The translations under genes were made by a program, and so were the position numbers. Shown piece after piece: positions 7,957-52,513 of a stretch of DNA of 64,000 bases. Every line of letters starts with the position of its first letter. Position 1 is the stretch's first letter. Below the pieces are notes generated by a model. It saw only the letters and a list, made by a program, of their open reading frames with translations. It was not told where the DNA came from and did no database searches. Where the stretch lies: assembly GCF_000620465.1 (NCBI RefSeq), contig NZ_JIBE01000003.1:1116001-1180000 (forward strand), written 5' to 3'. The DNA comes from Ralstonia sp. UNC404CL21Col (GTDB taxonomy: Bacteria; Pseudomonadota; Gammaproteobacteria; Burkholderiales; Burkholderiaceae).

Positions 7957-8427
7957 ATGTTCAACGTCGTCCTTGTCGAACCCGAAATCCCGCCCAATAC
8001 CGGCAATGTGATCCGCCTGTGCGCCAACACGGGCGCGCAACTGCATCTGATTGAACCGCTGGGTTTTCCGCTCGAGGATGCCCGCATGCGCCGCGCCGGC
8101 CTCGATTACCACGAGTACGCGACGATGCGCGTGCATGCCGATTGGGACGCCTTTCTGCGCGATGCGCAGCCCGATCCCGCGCGCATGTTCGCGCTCACGA
8201 CGCGCGGCTCGACGCCGTTTGCCAGCATGGCGTTTCAGCCGGGCGACTGGTTCGTGTTCGGGTCGGAAACGCGTGGGTTGTCGGAAGAGCGGCGCGAGTG
8301 GTTTCCCGCTTCGCAGCGGATTCGCCTGCCGATGCGGCCGGACAACCGGAGCCTGAATCTATCGAACACGGTGGCCGTGGTGGTGTTCGAAGCGTGGCGG
8401 CAGAACGGGTTCGCGGGCGGCGCCTGA
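7957..8427 (+). CDS. trmL: tRNA (cytidine(34)-2'-O)-methyltransferase
   Basis: This 156-aa SPOUT-class methyltransferase modifies the wobble base of tRNA-Leu. The trefoil-knot motifs are visible: NTGNVIRLCANTG near the N-terminus, FGSETRGLS in the middle and IRLPMRPDNRSLNLSNTVAV near the C-terminus. The length matches the small TrmL/YibK subfamily, which lacks extra RNA-binding domains. It starts 111 bases after comF and might be read from the same transcript. Confidence 0.94.
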   Translation: MFNVVLVEPEIPPNTGNVIRLCANTGAQLHLIEPLGFPLEDARMRRAGLDYHEYATMRVHADWDAFLRDAQPDPARMFALTTRGSTPFASMAFQPGDWFVFGSETRGLSEERREWFPASQRIRLPMRPDNRSLNLSNTVAVVVFEAWRQNGFAGGA

Positions 8428-45000: not shown

Positions 45001-45810
45001 TCAGTACCTCGCCGTCAGCTTGAGGGCGACGGTGCGTCGGCCGAGCGTCATGCGATCCATGCCGTTGCGGGTGGAGAGTTGGTGGGCATAGGCGGATGCG
45101 TCCGCGCCGGTCAAAGCGGCAGACAGCGTCACGAACTTGTTGATGGGTCGGGAGAGTTCAACGCGGTAATCGGTAAAGCTGAATGCGCTGTGGTTGCGCA
45201 CATGCTCGTGGCCGACGTGCAGCCCGAGTGTGAAGTTGTTCGGCAAGGGCACGGCCCAGTTGGCTTCGGCGTAAGTGGAGCCGCGGCTGCCGCGGTCGAT
45301 GCCGTCCGCCAGCGAATTGCCATCGAAGCCGAAGTAGTTCGACAGCGTCGTCCATAACCTGACCGACACGCCGCGCCAGCCGGCCCCGACCATCCATTCC
45401 GTGTAGTCGTAGCCGGTGGCGGGGCCGCCGCCAGCGGCCTTGTCGTAGCGGGCACCGGGATACCAGTAGCGATAGAGCCCGGTGGTCAGTTCGACGCCGT
45501 GCGCGACGGTGGTGGCATAGCCGAGGTAGGTGTCGATTTCGGCATGCGCACCGGCGATGACGTGGTCGCTGACCTGCGAGCCCCACACGCCGGCATAAAA
45601 ACCGCTCGGCGATGTGTAGTCGACGCCCGCTTGGAGCGCAGGTTTTCCCCATGTCTGGCGCAGGCCGCGCGACACGTATTGCGAGACAACCGATGCATTG
45701 GCCGACCAGCGTCTGTCATCGCCCGCCGGCACCTCGTCCGCCAATGCCGGCAGCGCAGCTGCACACGCCGCCGCCCCGCCCAGCATTGCGGTGACCTTGC
45801 GCCAGCGCAT
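45001..45810 (-). CDS. TorF family putative outer-membrane porin (choline operon copy)
   Basis: This 269-aa exported protein has a signal peptide (residues 1-24, ALPALA) and the TorF-type barrel start VVSQYVSRGLRQTWGKPALQ, ending with aromatic Tyr as barrels do. It is a distant paralogue of the protein at 22892-23707. Its start codon shares one base with the betA stop (TGATG), so translation is coupled to betA. A role in passing choline, betaine or related compounds across the outer membrane is inferred. Confidence 0.85.
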   Translation of the reverse strand: MRWRKVTAMLGGAAACAAALPALADEVPAGDDRRWSANASVVSQYVSRGLRQTWGKPALQAGVDYTSPSGFYAGVWGSQVSDHVIAGAHAEIDTYLGYATTVAHGVELTTGLYRYWYPGARYDKAAGGGPATGYDYTEWMVGAGWRGVSVRLWTTLSNYFGFDGNSLADGIDRGSRGSTYAEANWAVPLPNNFTLGLHVGHEHVRNHSAFSFTDYRVELSRPINKFVTLSAALTGADASAYAHQLSTRNGMDRMTLGRRTVALKLTARY

Positions 45811-47531
45811 CAGGCCGCCACCAGTTCACTGGCAACCAGCGGCTTGACCGGCGCCTGCAGCGGCGATTTGCCGTGCACATAGAACGCCGCATCGGAGCGG
45901 GCGAGCGGCGCCACACCGCGAATCCGGTCGGCGATCTTCTCGGCCATCATGATCGTCGGCGCGTTGAGGTTGCCGGTGATGATGCGCGGCATGATCGACG
46001 CATCCACCACGCGCAGACCCTGCAAGCCATGCACACGGCCTTCGTTGTCGACCACGGCCATCGGATCGTCGGCCGAACCCATCTTGCAGGTGCAGGACGG
46101 ATGCAGCGCAGTCTCGGCGTGTTGCCGCACGAAGGCGTCGATCTCGGCGTCGGTCTGTACGCTCGGGCCCGGGCTGATCTCACGACCGCGGTATTGGTCG
46201 AACGCACGCTGCGCGATGATGTCGCGCGTGATGCGTACACCGGCGCGGAATTCACGCCAATCCACGTCATGCGCCATGTAGTTGAAGAGGATGCGGGGCT
46301 TGTCACGCGGATCGCGCGAGGCGAGCTTCACGTAACCGGTGGACGGCGAACGCATCGAACCCACGTGGCACTGGAACCCATGCATCTTCACCGGGTTGCT
46401 GCCGTCGTAGTTCACGGCCAGCGGCAGGAAGTGGTACTGGATGTTCGGCCATTCGAAGCTGTCATCGCTGCGGATGAACCCACCCGCCTCGAAGTGGTTG
46501 CTGGCGCCGGGGCCGGTGCCGTGCATGTACCACTCCAGCCCGACCTTCGGCTTGTTGTACCAAAGCGTGTTTTCGTAGATCGACACCGGGCGCAGGCACT
46601 CGTACTGGATGTACATCTCCAGATGGTCCTGCAGGTTCTCGCCCACACCGGGCAGATGCGCCACCGAGTGGATGCCCAGGGCGCGCAGCTCGTCGGCATT
46701 GCCGACGCCCGAGCGCTGCAGCAACTGCGGCGAAGCGATAGCGCCACTGGCGACGATCACCTCGCGGCGCGCGCGCCATGTTTCGCGGTTGCCGTCCATC
46801 AGCGCCTCGACGCCGACCGCACGCGTGCCATCGAAGATCACGCGATCGGCCAGCACGCGCGGCAGCACCGTCAGCGTGGACCGCTTGCGCGCCTCGTCGA
46901 GATAGCACAGCGATGTGCTGGCGCGGCGGCCCTTGGCGGTGACGGTGCGATCCATCGGGCCCAGGCCCTCCTGGCGATAGCCGTTCAGGTCGTCCGTGGC
47001 CGGAATACCGGCTTGCTCACCGGCTTCGATAAAGGCGTGGAACAGCAGGCTGTTGTCGTGCTTGGGCGTGCTGACCTGCAGCGGGCCCGAATCGCCGTGC
47101 CAGTCGTTGGCGCCCTTGTCATACGTTTCCGATTTGCGGAAGTACGGCAGGCAGTCGGCATACGTCCAGTCGGGCAAGTTGAAATCGCTCGCCCAGCGCT
47201 CGTAATCCATCGCGTTGCCGCGAATGAAACACATGCCATTGATGAGCGACGACCCGCCCAGCCCCTTGCCGCGGCCTTGCGCCATACGGCGGTTGTTCAT
47301 GTGCGGCTCGGGCTCGGTTTCGTAGGCCCAGTTGTACGTGGTGCCTTGCAGCGGATACGCCAGCGCCGCCGGCATCTGCGTGCGGAAATCCCAGCGGTGG
47401 TCGGGGCCGCCGGCTTCCAGCAGCAGCACGGTCACGTCCGCGTCTTCGGTCAGGCGCGCAGCCAGCGTGCAACCAGCCGAGCCCGCGCCCACGATGATGT
47501 AGTCGTACTCCTGTACGGTGTTTGTGGTCAA
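45810..47531 (-). CDS. betA: Choline dehydrogenase
   Basis: This 573-aa FAD enzyme of the GMC family oxidises choline to betaine aldehyde. It has the FAD-binding motif [34 protein letters not shown] and a C-terminal GMC block [18 protein letters not shown]. The start is probably TTG at 47531, because GGAGGG lies just upstream; the longer frame has only a GTG overlapping the betB stop. It lies 16 bases after betB. Other GMC alcohol oxidases are possible but the pairing with betB supports choline. Confidence 0.93.
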
Positions 47532-47547
47532 AACATGCCCTCCGTTC

Positions 47548-49071
47548 TTACTCAGCACCGGCGCCGAACCAGCCCATCGGCTGCGGTGCGAGGTTGATGT
47601 AGCTGTGCTTCAGTTCGGTGTACTCGTCGAGACCGCCCCGGCCCAGTTCGCGGCCGATGCCGCTGGCCTTGTAGCCGCCCCACGGCGCCTCAGGGAAGTA
47701 CGGGTGATAGTCGTTGGCCCACACGGTGCCGAAACGCAGTGCGCGGGTCACCCGGTTGGCGCGGTTCAGGTCGGCCGTCCACACCGCGCCCGCCAAGCCG
47801 AACGGCGTGGCGTTGGCGCGGCGCACCGCTTCTTCTTCGGTGGAGAAGCGCTCAACGGTCAGCGCCGGGCCGAAGATTTCTTCGGTGGCGATCTTCATGT
47901 CGTCGCGCACATTGGCGAGCACGGTCGGCTCCAGCCAGAAGCCGCGCTCGAACGCCTCGCCCTCCGGCGCCTTGCCGCCACAGCGCAGCACCGCACCTTC
48001 CTGCACGCCGGCCTGGATCATGTTGATGATCTTCTGGCGCTGGAATGCGGATTGCACCGGGCCCATCTCCGTGCCTTCGGCAAAGCCGTTGCCGATACGG
48101 ATGCGCTTGACGCGCTCGACCAGCGCATCGACAAAGCGGTCGTGAATGCCGTCTTGCAGCATCAGGCGCGATCCGGCCGAGCACACCTGGCCCGCGTGGA
48201 AGAACGCCGCATTGACTGCGTAGTCGACGGCGGCATCGAAATCTGCGTCGTCGAAGATGATGTTCGGGTTCTTGCCGCCCAGCTCCAGGGCGACTTTCTT
48301 GAAGTTGCCGATGGCCGCATTCATGACCGCCGCGCCGGCAACCGCCCCACCGGTGAACGAAACGAGATCCACGTCCAGATTGCGCGACAGCTCGGCCCCG
48401 GCCTCGCCCGCACCGGTGACAAGGTTGAACACGCCCGCCGGCACGCCAACCTCGATCAGCAGTTCGGCAAAGCGGTGCGTGGTCAGCGGCGTCAGGTTGC
48501 TCGGCTTGACGATGACGGTGTTGCCCGCGCCCAGTGCCGGCGCGATTTTCCAGGCGGCTTGCAGCAGCGGGTAGTTCCACGGCGTGATGAGGCCGCATAC
48601 GCCCACCGGCTCGCGCAGCGTGCGGCTGATGACCGTGTCGGGCGCCTCGTTGATGAGACCGGATTCCGTGGCAACCAACCCCGCGAAATAGCGGAACGTC
48701 GCGGCAATGCCGTCCATGTCCCAGCGGCTTTCGGTGATCGTCTTGCCGGTGTTGAGCGATTCGAGCGTCGCGAGGTTCTCGGCGTCTGCGTCGATGGCGT
48801 CGGCAATGCGGTTGAGCAGGCGAGCGCGATCGCGGGTGCCCGTCTGGCGCCACGGCCCTTCGTCAAACGCGCGGCGGGCGGCGGCAATGGCGCGCTGCAC
48901 ATCGGCCACGGAGGCATCGGCCGCCTGCGTCAGGACGTTTTCGGTGGCGGGATCGACGATGTCGCGGTACACGCCGCCCTCGGGCTGCACCCACTGGCCG
49001 TCGATATAGAGATCAAGACGGGGTGCCAGCGTGGCGGAATGGAATTCGGTGGAAAGGGAAGCTTGCGTCAT
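47548..49071 (-). CDS. betB: Betaine aldehyde dehydrogenase
   Basis: This 507-aa aldehyde dehydrogenase makes glycine betaine. Catalytic Glu263 is in [12 protein letters not shown] and Cys297 is in AGQVCSAG. The NAD-binding segment FTGGAVAGA is normal. The start at 49071 ([10 protein letters not shown]) is preferred over the 33-residue longer frame. It is the first gene of the bet operon, divergent from the HTH-PAS regulator. Specificity is inferred from operon context. Confidence 0.93.
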
Positions 49072-49240
49072 ATCCAGTACCCCTGGTGAATGGCTGGCGC
49101 ACAAAGAGACGGCGCCCGAAATGCCGACACCGTAGCGTCTTGGCAGACGACATTCGGCGTGGCGACCCATAAATTCACTGTTGGTGTTTTTATTTACCTT
49201 TGGAGAATTTTGGACTAGTCTAGGAAAAATTAGTTGCGTC

Positions 49241-49338: not shown

Positions 49339-50784
49339 ATGACCGCCGCAGCACTTCCGCCGCCCGACGGCCCCATCGATGACGACAGCTTTGCCGGCCG
49401 CCTCAAAGGCGTGCTGACACGCGGCCGCATCCAGCTCAAGCAGGTGGCGGCGGCGCTGCGCGTATCCCCCTCGGCGGTCCACAAATGGACGCGTGGCGGC
49501 GAGATCGAATACGCCAACCTGCTGGCATTGGCCCGCTTCCTGAACGTGAATTGGCTGTGGCTGCGCTACGGCGATCGCGCCCTCGCCGATCTGGAAGCCA
49601 GCCTGACCACCGACGTCCGCGCCCGCGAAGGCCGCCAGAAGCACATCGCCGCCATCATGGAAAGCGAGGCGCGCATGACCTTCGCGCAGGAGATTTCCGG
49701 CGTGGTCACGTGGGAGTGGAACCTGTTGACGGACGCGGTCGCGTATTCACCGAATGCCGCCCGCCTCTTTGGCCGGCCGATCCGCACGCTGGACGATTTT
49801 TGGCAATGCGTGCTTCCCGAAGACGTGCCCGGCGTGCAGGCCGCGGTCTCGCAGAACCTCAGCGCGGGCGGCGTCTACGAGCATGAATTCCGCATTGCGC
49901 CGGCGCCGGACGTGGTGCGCTGGATCGTCTCGCGGGCAACGCTCGTGCGTGATGCGCAGGACCGCCCGGTCAAGATGATCGGCCTGAGCCTGGACACCAC
50001 GGAGCGCCACACCGCCGAAGCCGCGTTGCGCGATTCGGAGGCGTTGCTGGCCAAGGCGCAGCAGATCGCCCACCTCGGCAGCTGGCTCTGGGAACCGGGC
50101 ACCGATGCCTGCCGATGGACGGACGAGGCTTACCGCATCTTCGGCTGGGCGCCGCAATCCACGCCCGTGACGATGGCGCGCTATCTGGAGGCCATCGTTC
50201 CCGCAGATCGCGCCCGCGTGCAGGCCGTGCTGGACCGCGCCGTGGCATCGCGCCAGCCGTATCGCGTTGAATACACCATCACCCTGCCCGACGGTTCCCA
50301 CCGCCATCTTCGTGAAGAAGGCGAAGCGCAGGACCCATCGGCCGCCACGCCCACGATGATCGGCGCGGCGCAGGACATCACCGCTGAAGTGGAAGCCCAA
50401 GCTGCCTTCCGCGACAGCGAAGCCAAGCTGCGGACGTTGTTCGAACAGGTGCCCGTCGGCATCGCGCAGGTCAGCCTGGAAGGCCGCTGCCTGCGCGCCA
50501 ACCCGTGGCTTTGCACGCTGCTGGGCCAGTCGGAAACAGCGCTGCAGCAGCGGACGCTGCTCGACCTCACGCACCGCAACGACCTCGCTCGCCACCTGCG
50601 CCAGTACGGTGAGTTGCTCGCCGGCACGGTACCAACGTATGCGCTATCGCTGCAGTTGGTACGCGGGGATGGCTCTGCCGTACCGGTGCGGATCACCACG
50701 TCCTTGGCGCGCGATCCGGCTACGGACGCACCGCTGCATCTGATTACCGTGGTCGACACCGTGCCCGAGGCGGGGGCCTCGTAG
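49339..50784 (+). CDS. HTH protein with three PAS domains
   Basis: This 481-aa protein has an N-terminal XRE-type helix-turn-helix (about residues 19-75; LKQVAAALRVSPSAVHKWTR), then three PAS/PAC repeats (about 115-235, 245-350 and 365-478; the third begins LRTLFEQVPVGIAQVSLEGR). No kinase, GGDEF or EAL output domain follows. It is therefore a DNA-binding sensor rather than a two-component kinase. It is divergent from betB and precedes the EamA unit, so control of choline genes is likely. Ligands or cofactors of the PAS domains cannot be read from sequence. Confidence 0.85.
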   Translation: MTAAALPPPDGPIDDDSFAGRLKGVLTRGRIQLKQVAAALRVSPSAVHKWTRGGEIEYANLLALARFLNVNWLWLRYGDRALADLEASLTTDVRAREGRQKHIAAIMESEARMTFAQEISGVVTWEWNLLTDAVAYSPNAARLFGRPIRTLDDFWQCVLPEDVPGVQAAVSQNLSAGGVYEHEFRIAPAPDVVRWIVSRATLVRDAQDRPVKMIGLSLDTTERHTAEAALRDSEALLAKAQQIAHLGSWLWEPGTDACRWTDEAYRIFGWAPQSTPVTMARYLEAIVPADRARVQAVLDRAVASRQPYRVEYTITLPDGSHRHLREEGEAQDPSAATPTMIGAAQDITAEVEAQAAFRDSEAKLRTLFEQVPVGIAQVSLEGRCLRANPWLCTLLGQSETALQQRTLLDLTHRNDLARHLRQYGELLAGTVPTYALSLQLVRGDGSAVPVRITTSLARDPATDAPLHLITVVDTVPEAGAS

Positions 50785-50976: not shown

Positions 50977-52047
50977 TTGGCTTCTTCCTCCGCCGCCCGC
51001 GCGGCCCATCATCAACGCACACTGCAGTGGGGTTACCGCTGGGCCTTATGGGCCGCCATCCTCTGGGGCGCTTGGTACGTGCCCGGCACGGCCGTCTGGC
51101 ATGAATCCCCATTCGCCGCGATGGACCTTTCCGACCCGCGCGTGTTCCTGGTCTGCGCAGCGGTCATCACGGCGTTCCACAGCGTCATGGTGACGGTCTT
51201 CCAGTGGGTGTGGCTCGGCTCGCTCGGCAAGCTGGGGGATTACTTCCGCACCCTCGGCCAATTCCGCAAGATCTCGCGCTGGTACTTCATTGCGGCGGTC
51301 GTGGGCGGGCTGATGGCCAACTTCGGCTCGTATCTCGCGATGGGCTATGTGGGCGCCGTGTTTGCGGCCGTCGCCGGGCTGCTGTATCCGGTGGTGGGCG
51401 CGACGGTGGCCAAGCTTTGGTACAACGAGCGCATCAGCGCACGGGCGGCGGTGGGCATCGCCATCATCATCCTGGGCGGGGTGGCGATCTACGCGCCGGC
51501 ACTGATGGCCGAATCGCACAGCGGCAGCCATCAGTGGATCGGCTACCTGGGTGGCGCCATGGCCGCCATCGGCTGGGGCCTGGAAGGCGCGATCGTCGGA
51601 CGCGCCATGGACGTGACAGATCCCGACTGCGGGGTCTCCATCCGCTACACCGCCGAGGCCATCTACTGGGTCGTTTTCATCCTGCCGGCCATCGCGCTGT
51701 TCGTGCATGTGCCGGTGCCCGTGACGGAGATTGCCTCGGGCATCGTCCACAGCAAGGCGCTGCTGTGGCTGGTCGTGGGCGGCCTCACCTTCTCGTTCTG
51801 CGCAGTCGCCTGGTACAAGTCGTTCCCGTTGATCGGCGTGGGACGCGGGCAGGCGCTGGGCGCGTTCTACGCAATGTTCGCCACCCTCTTCACAGCCATC
51901 TTCACGCTGCAGTTTCCGGAGTGGTATTTCCTGATCGGGCTGGCGCTGGTGATCTTCGGCGGCTTCGTGATGGTGTCGGAAAGCGCGGAAAACCTGGAAG
52001 TCATCCGCGGCGGCACGGCACCTGCAACCACGGAGACGCACGCATGA
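50977..52047 (+). CDS. EamA-like 10-TM transporter
   Basis: This 356-aa membrane protein has about ten helices in two EamA-like halves (first half WALWAAILWGAWYVPGTAVW; pair of segments around YLAMGYVGAVFAAVAGLLYP). Start is TTG at 50977, with AAGGAG six bases upstream. It belongs to the DMT superfamily, but the substrate is unknown; its place between the bet regulator and phospholipase C suggests a choline-related or phosphocholine-related solute. Its stop overlaps the next start by ATGA. Confidence 0.85.
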   Translation: MASSSAARAAHHQRTLQWGYRWALWAAILWGAWYVPGTAVWHESPFAAMDLSDPRVFLVCAAVITAFHSVMVTVFQWVWLGSLGKLGDYFRTLGQFRKISRWYFIAAVVGGLMANFGSYLAMGYVGAVFAAVAGLLYPVVGATVAKLWYNERISARAAVGIAIIILGGVAIYAPALMAESHSGSHQWIGYLGGAMAAIGWGLEGAIVGRAMDVTDPDCGVSIRYTAEAIYWVVFILPAIALFVHVPVPVTEIASGIVHSKALLWLVVGGLTFSFCAVAWYKSFPLIGVGRGQALGAFYAMFATLFTAIFTLQFPEWYFLIGLALVIFGGFVMVSESAENLEVIRGGTAPATTETHA

Positions 52048-52346
52048 AACTGCACATGAAGGGCTACGTCCTGCAACTGCTCGCGGGCAGCGACATGCTG
52101 TGGGACAGCGAAATCGCCCATCGCACCTGCATCGAATACGGCAAACCCGAAGACGAGTACTGGACCGGCAGCGTTCGCGCCATCCTCTCAGACCTGTACT
52201 CCGGAGGCCTGGTGCAAACCTCCGAAGACCAGCTCGACGACGCCACCAACAAGATGCACTTCCGCTACGCCATCACCGAGTTTGGCCGTCAGCGCATGGC
52301 CGACACCGGCCTGCTCGACCTCGAATCGAAGGAGACCACGCAATGA
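52044..52346 (+). CDS. Small winged-helix-like protein, coupled to the transporter
   Basis: This 100-aa soluble protein has a winged-helix look: LHMKGYVLQLLAGSDMLWDS, then VRAILSDLYSGGLVQTSED and a strand-turn-strand NKMHFRYAITEFGRQRM. This resembles PadR-type DNA-binding domains but no clear family is recognised. It overlaps the transporter gene by four bases and its own stop overlaps the next start by four bases. It may be a regulator or a cytoplasmic partner of the transporter. Confidence 0.75.
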   Translation: MKLHMKGYVLQLLAGSDMLWDSEIAHRTCIEYGKPEDEYWTGSVRAILSDLYSGGLVQTSEDQLDDATNKMHFRYAITEFGRQRMADTGLLDLESKETTQ

Positions 52347-52453
52347 CGCAGTATTGGGGCTATCCGTTTGCCGATGTCCTGGCGATCGTGGTGATCGTCG
52401 GGCTGAGCGCGCTGGCGCTGTACCAGGCACGCACGTACACGAAACAACTCTGA
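52343..52453 (+). CDS. 36-aa single-helix membrane microprotein
   Basis: This very short gene encodes 36 aa: a polar start MTQYWGYPFADV, one transmembrane helix (about residues 12-28) and a basic tail ARTYTKQL. The four-base ATGA overlap with the preceding gene and the terminator just after it support a real gene. Single-helix microproteins often adjust larger transporters; here that is inferred for the EamA-like protein. Confidence 0.7.
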   Translation: MTQYWGYPFADVLAIVVIVGLSALALYQARTYTKQL

Positions 52454-52473: not shown

Positions 52474-52513
52474 AAAACGGCCCGCTGGCAAGTCACGCCA
52501 GCGGGCCGTTTTG
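52474..52513. terminator. Strong bidirectional terminator between the EamA unit and phospholipase C
   Basis: A perfect 14-bp stem AACGGCCCGCTGGC/GCCAGCGGGCCGTT (52476-52489 and 52497-52510) lies between convergent genes, with T runs on both sides. Confidence 0.9.

Follow-up and report, generated by a model that had tools for sequence, protein, structure and literature searches.

How bacteria that use trimethylamine (TMA) take it up is little known, and two proteins have been implicated: TmaT, a Na+/TMA symporter for which this role has been shown, and MttP, a putative TMA permease of methanogenic archaea which belongs to the DMT superfamily and is encoded beside TMA methyltransferase genes but whose role is unproven (PMC11708041, accessible part of the paper). 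Choline is imported by the pneumococcal carrier LicB, also of the DMT superfamily (PDB 7b0k and 7paf), and an EamA transporter of Eubacterium limosum (WP_038350934), encoded in a choline demethylation cluster, has MttP and LicB as its best database matches (PMC12155760, accessible part). Here we examine the products of three genes, g1, g2 and g3, found in a 64,000-nucleotide stretch of Ralstonia sp. UNC404CL21Col (contig NZ_JIBE01000003.1, positions 1,116,001 to 1,180,000; hereafter, the window), namely, a DMT/EamA carrier, a winged-helix protein and a membrane microprotein. We favour, at somewhat better than even chances, the interpretation that the trio is a three-component secondary importer of trimethylammonium compounds, with g3 as a single-helix subunit and g2 as a cytoplasmic partner. 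This interpretation builds on the conservation, co-occurrence, order, neighbours and predicted folds of the genes, from which we infer the substrate, import rather than export, the physical association of the proteins, the topology of g3 and the role of g2.

A search with the g2 protein retrieved 30 relatives, and a 13-row g2 profile retrieved 215, of which the best 120 were listed. Scanning one genome per species with the g2 profile yielded 76 loci distributed over three phyla, Pseudomonadota, Actinomycetota and Bacillota; a plasmid sample (3 of the 4 records found by DNA similarity) brings the total to 79, or 80 with the window, which comes from a 5.09 Mb genome whose g1 and g2 relatives are Ralstonia. 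In all 79 loci g2 is followed by g3 (63 detected by motif scan, 75 by profile, all 79 by the two combined), which places g3 beyond chance, and g1 is present in 77 of them (78 of 80 counting the window); L075 starts within g2 and L080 has part of g2 only. The g3 profile has no match elsewhere at E 0.1 among 20145 fragments of 25–150 residues from these loci, whereas g3 also lies 3' of g2 in three genomes not used in building the profile (G265, G209 and G121). In both plasmid records that carry annotation, g3 is unannotated. Compared with seven close relatives (L005–L011), g3 shows 43 synonymous and 10 non-synonymous codon differences over 252 codons; the non-synonymous to synonymous ratio among close relatives is 76:337 for g1 (1780 codons) and 85:74 for g2 (600 codons), so that g2 changes fastest. 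Lack of conservation of the 100- and 36-residue frames next to the transporter, named in an earlier sequence-only reading of this DNA as the outcome that would speak against the unit, was not what we found: the trio is conserved together in three phyla. Chance reading frames are ruled out by this conservation, and that g1, g2 and g3 constitute a functional unit is practically certain.

Several loci depart from the common arrangement. In L037 (1242–3421) the order is altered, with g2-g3 first and g1 about 0.6–0.8 kb after, so direct adjacency of g1 to g2-g3 is not strictly needed. In Ralstonia pickettii H2Cu5 (L080, ~8001–8180), only the last part of g2 and g3 are kept, and the stretch showed no member of the g1 cluster; this strain may have lost the trio. 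In Methylophaga L061 (9071–9178) and L038 (1098–1205), g3 lies ~790 and ~410 bases past g2, respectively, with a frame of ~105 amino acids (aa; cluster C92) in between. The trios of L052, L068 and L074, from records labelled Peribacillus and Paenibacillus, are nearly identical (g1 97–99%), which reflects either recent transfer or a mislabelled record; FAD-synthetase-like and cupin genes lie near the L068 copy.

In the window, the coordinates of the three-gene unit and the ATGA overlaps at both junctions are as the sequence-only reading had given them, and GGAG stands 6 to 8 bases 5' of the start codon in all three genes, so that g3 has a ribosome site of its own inside the end of g2. Across loci, four-base overlaps occur between g1 and g2 in 18 of 75 (L024 and L037 excluded) and between g2 and g3 in 22 of 78 (L013 not placed); the conserved trait is the gene order, and translational coupling, which had been deduced from the overlaps, is not supported as a general feature. 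Nor is the notion of a complete unit, because in many relatives the trio sits among methylated-amine genes. The terminator downstream of g3 is strong, as had been claimed; it was also claimed to be bidirectional, but the plus-strand T run is short and the scan accepted the hairpin for the minus strand only, where it would serve the convergent phospholipase gene; bidirectional function is plausible.

The carrier, g1, passes the curated EamA cut-off of Pfam (39.3 versus 28.2 bits), and its AlphaFold model (predicted local distance difference test, pLDDT, 88) has DMT structures of the 10-helix fold as its top structural matches. Its only sequence match in PDB is LicB (E 1.5e-9, ~20% identity). 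LicB also ranks first by fold but is tied with others, e.g., 5y78 lies within 1 Z, and a second structural look did not single it out; g1 is thus related to LicB in both sequence and fold, and choline transport by g1 is predicted from gene context only. Assignment to BCCT was rejected, as EamA was matched instead and BCCT (PF02028) is absent from the Pfam matches of g1 up to E 1. The window's genome has no BCCT carrier at E 1e-30 and no match to MttB, and g1 is not beside mttB.

Neighbouring open reading frames were clustered by similarity (up to 8 kb per side, 4 kb for plasmids, less at contig ends) and cluster representatives were named by curated models; some members may therefore differ in function, the GcvT-like proteins of Rhodobacterales being such a case. 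Of the 80 loci, 52 have one or more TMA-type clusters, 14 (window included) have the choline dehydrogenase gene betA and no TMA-type cluster, and the remaining 14 have neither. The TMA-type clusters comprise TMA monooxygenase (33/80), trimethylamine N-oxide (TMAO) demethylase or GcvT-like proteins (22/80), TMA-dehydrogenase-like proteins (8/80), one of which, from Methylophaga, scores 1501 bits over its length against the solved TMA dehydrogenase, and TMA corrinoid methyltransferase (3/80), for which the two matches in L022 stop at model position 313, below the full-length cut-off. In total, betA is found in 16 loci and betB in 17, and two Marinobacter loci (L056 and L079) have both betA and the TMA monooxygenase. 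Among the 71 loci having an upstream neighbour, the gene directly upstream of g1 is the monooxygenase in 19 and an HTH-PAS regulator in 14, all 14 of the latter being betA-linked. Because the trio lies mostly beside genes for TMA or choline breakdown, it is probably an uptake system for these compounds; a trimethylammonium substrate is highly probable as a class, and choline is a reasonably likely substrate in the window.

The genes around the trio in the window are listed in the table. A cluster of TorF-family putative porins is found close to the trio in 13 of the 80 loci (window, L013, L014, L016, L037 and others), and the porin is a candidate outer-membrane route for the same substrate. 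In the Azoarcus, Aromatoleum and Cupriavidus relatives (L001, L002, L013, L014 and L016), a NarX-like sensor cluster occurs near the trio and none of the TMA and betA clusters counted does.

Table. The g1-g2-g3 trio and neighbouring features in the window.
Feature	Position	Strand	Remarks
TorF-family putative outer-membrane porin	45001..45810	-	TIGR02001, 128.9 bits versus cut-off of 47.15
Choline dehydrogenase BetA	45810..47558	-	TIGR01810, 861.2 bits versus cut-off of 732.1
Aldehyde dehydrogenase, betaine-aldehyde dehydrogenase (BetB)-like	47548..49170	-	best NCBIfam model BADH TIGR01804, 619.8 bits, below cut-off of 668.6
HTH and PAS-repeat regulator	49339..50784	+	directly upstream of g1; Pfam HTH_3, PAS_3
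g1, 10-helix DMT/EamA carrier	50977..52047	+	356 aa, TTG start
g2, winged-helix protein, unannotated family	52044..52346	+	100 aa
g3, single-helix membrane microprotein	52343..52453	+	36 aa
Terminator hairpin between g3 and convergent phospholipase gene	52474..52512	-	17 pairs; terminator scan, minus strand only

The association with catabolic genes is also seen in genome sets. Among 198 genomes of Pseudomonadaceae, g2 is present in 9 and a monooxygenase over the cut-off in 52, which include all 9; in each of these, g2 and the monooxygenase are ~1.1 kb apart, leaving room for one gene, g1. The 43 trio-bearing genomes include 23 with a monooxygenase over the cut-off and 20 without. In Ralstonia, 12 of 16 genomes have g2, and betA over the cut-off is confined to the same 12, ~4.5 kb from g2 on the same contig. 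Weaker betA-like genes are present in many of these genomes, the 4 that lack g2 among them. None of these 16 genomes has a TMA monooxygenase at E 1e-80, and 6 of them (5 of the 12 with g2) have a BCCT carrier. Across 369 genomes of the class, 4 have g2 and 4 have a member of the g1 group (E up to 1e-25), and three genomes have both; the exceptions are G085 and G121, the latter described below. The genome G085 has two tandem g1 copies at a contig end (L088, 2–1579) and no g2 match; given this position, g2 may have been cut off. By eye, the frames beside these copies resemble sarcosine oxidase subunits.

In a g1 tree of 73 rows built by a quick method, the 14 betA-linked carriers without a nearby TMA gene form one clade (Shimodaira-Hasegawa-like approximate likelihood ratio test, SH-aLRT, 100), the nearest relatives of which are unsure because of long branches. 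The differences that are fixed or nearly fixed in this clade (numbered by window residues) include Ala at 276, where 57 of the 58 others have Tyr, Tyr at 20 and 224 (Phe in all 58 others), and Asn at 115 (Ile in 55 of 58). In an alignment with LicB, a choline carrier, residue 276 falls on a Tyr, which disfavours a simple rule by which Ala would denote choline. The Rhodobacterales g1 nest within Actinomycetota, next to Amycolatopsis L069 (support 99), and outside the six Rhodobacterales loci the three sequences closest to their g1 and g3 are from Actinomycetota, whereas those closest to their g2 are mixed; the g2 tree has too few columns to settle cross-phylum placement. The sequence relationships of g1 and g3 are thus consistent with movement as a set, those of g2 less clearly so. 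The distances of g1, g2 and g3 correlate (0.91, 0.87 and 0.80), although shared descent raises these values too.

Up to E 1, g3 matches no Pfam family, and with NCBIfam it gives only a chance match far below the cut-off, so that it belongs to none of the small transporter subunit families described in these databases. Its hydropathy fits a single helix, in agreement with the sequence-only reading of its 36 residues. Its opposite ends commonly read M-S-[DE]-F-W-G-[YF] and A-R-[TS]-F-V-x-K-[LI], with variants. Among the literature matches listed (titles and abstract openings, mostly of open papers), none describes the trio or g3, which accords with the earlier remark that no system with this set had been described.

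We propose that g1 would be a LicB-like DMT carrier binding the trimethylammonium cation in an aromatic-rich pocket, and that g3 would pack on it as a single-helix accessory subunit, with the aromatic FWGY-type motif at an outside N-terminus and the basic C-terminus (ARTxxxKL) inside. The soluble winged-helix protein g2 would dock on the inner face and stabilise or gate the carrier, probably by way of the conserved g1 tail (VLEVxRAV) together with the tail of g3. This part of g1 (residues 335–344, consensus TExxxVLEVxRAV) contains an invariant R344, is diverged in Methylophaga and its kin, and is the predicted docking site. In the clade of the window (Ralstonia, Crenobacter and Chromobacterium), choline would be taken in and passed to BetA and BetB, whereas in most other lineages TMA would be the substrate. 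That g3 is a physical subunit we consider likely; for g2 as a carrier partner, the balance tips only slightly in favour. A tentative and rather doubtful extension is that the trio is the first case of a 10-helix DMT carrier whose accessory subunits, g3 and the winged-helix g2, are obligate, and that it moved between phyla and was retuned from TMA to choline in one clade, with changes in g1 such as those at residues 276 (Tyr to Ala), 224 (Phe to Tyr) and 115 (Ile to Asn) as candidates for the shift in specificity. Under this extension, g2, derived from a DNA-binding fold, might leave DNA or dock on the carrier depending on substrate flux, which would make the transporter its own sensor.

Several observations weigh against the three-component importer and are best considered with the alternatives to which they point, beginning with g2. 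No Pfam or NCBIfam family matches g2 above cut-off. Its model is confident (mean pLDDT 90), and chains of the DNA-binding proteins RosR and PadR are among the best structural matches, so that the description of g2 as winged-helix-like, made from the sequence, is supported. The same fold would suit an arrangement in which g1 and g3 form the transporter and g2 is a PadR-type regulator of the operon, perhaps autoregulatory, that makes no contact with the carrier; the weak Pfam PadR match (E 0.052) and an isoelectric point (pI) of 6 or more in 19 of 59 members point the same way. However, this match reaches 14 bits against a gathering score of 27 and is found in 1 of 13 g2 members at E 0.1, and membership of g2 in PadR (PF03551) was set aside. 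The g2 proteins are mostly acidic: 40 of the 59 have a pI below 6, and the median net charge is -3. Charge would thus argue against DNA binding, and the modelled fold for it. In several lineages other regulators are encoded near the trio (HTH-PAS, IclR, NarXL-type and sigma-54), and invariance of D21 and R84 in 59 sequences from three phyla would be unusual for a local regulator. We regard this arrangement as possible but unlikely, and a plain regulatory role of g2 as similarly doubtful.

The direction of transport and the place of g3 raise the other two alternatives. The trio could serve as an exporter or safety valve, acting on amines or on an intermediate of the pathway, given that many DMT proteins export; moreover, in G121 (L089, 8419–9201), two short g1 pieces enclose an SMR gene, the best model of which is a Qac-type exporter, below the cut-off (118.4 versus 188 bits), a hint that another transporter gene of the DMT superfamily was inserted there. 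ETF-like frames lie near this SMR gene. Nevertheless, the only PDB sequence relative of g1, LicB, is an importer, the neighbours of the trio are TMA and choline catabolic genes, and the betA clade also has the putative porin; export thus appears quite improbable. Alternatively, g3, alone or with g2, might function independently of g1, for instance as an anchor in the membrane or as a signal, and be merely co-transcribed with it. In G121, g2-g3 occur without an intact g1, ~11 kb from its remnants, which speaks against g2-g3 being strictly dependent on g1; in L037, too, g1 stands apart from g2-g3. The G121 arrangement may reflect gene decay or an assembly fault; by eye, the neighbours of its g2-g3 resemble a TorF porin, a GcvT-like protein and a candidate TMA dehydrogenase. 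The correlated distances of the three genes, with the proviso given above, and the joint placement of Rhodobacterales g1 and g3 near Actinomycetota speak against separate action, which we consider improbable, if a little less so than export. The idea that g2-g3 might be a toxin-antitoxin pair was set aside.

As an importer, the trio would be a candidate for TMA uptake in three phyla, beside four types of TMA- or TMAO-related enzymes, with a choline version in addition; turnover of TMA and choline bears on the marine nitrogen and methane cycles. A conserved, unannotated protein of 36 residues would gain a concrete partner and role. The 10-helix DMT carriers are usually regarded as single proteins, and the trio, if we are correct, shows that they can have accessory subunits. 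Small single-helix partners of transporters are known, e.g., KdpF, AcrZ and MetS, each a short helix working with a larger transporter as proposed here for g3; to our knowledge, none has been described for a 10-helix DMT carrier.

Among the described systems, TmaT does the job proposed for the trio, TMA uptake (PMC11708041, accessible part), but is a homotrimeric BCCT carrier with 12 helices, in contrast to the DMT/EamA protein g1. By description, g1 is comparable to MttP (same source), both being DMT carriers, and the trio of L022, like MttP, lies beside TMA methyltransferase genes, as do, by cluster, those of L023 and L027. The E. limosum transporter is likewise similar to g1 by description; accessory small proteins go unmentioned in the accessible part of its report (PMC12155760). 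LicB has a gene context different from that of the trio, and the titles of its PDB entries name no accessory proteins. The carrier type is thus already known, from LicB and MttP, and what is new is its partners, g2 and g3.
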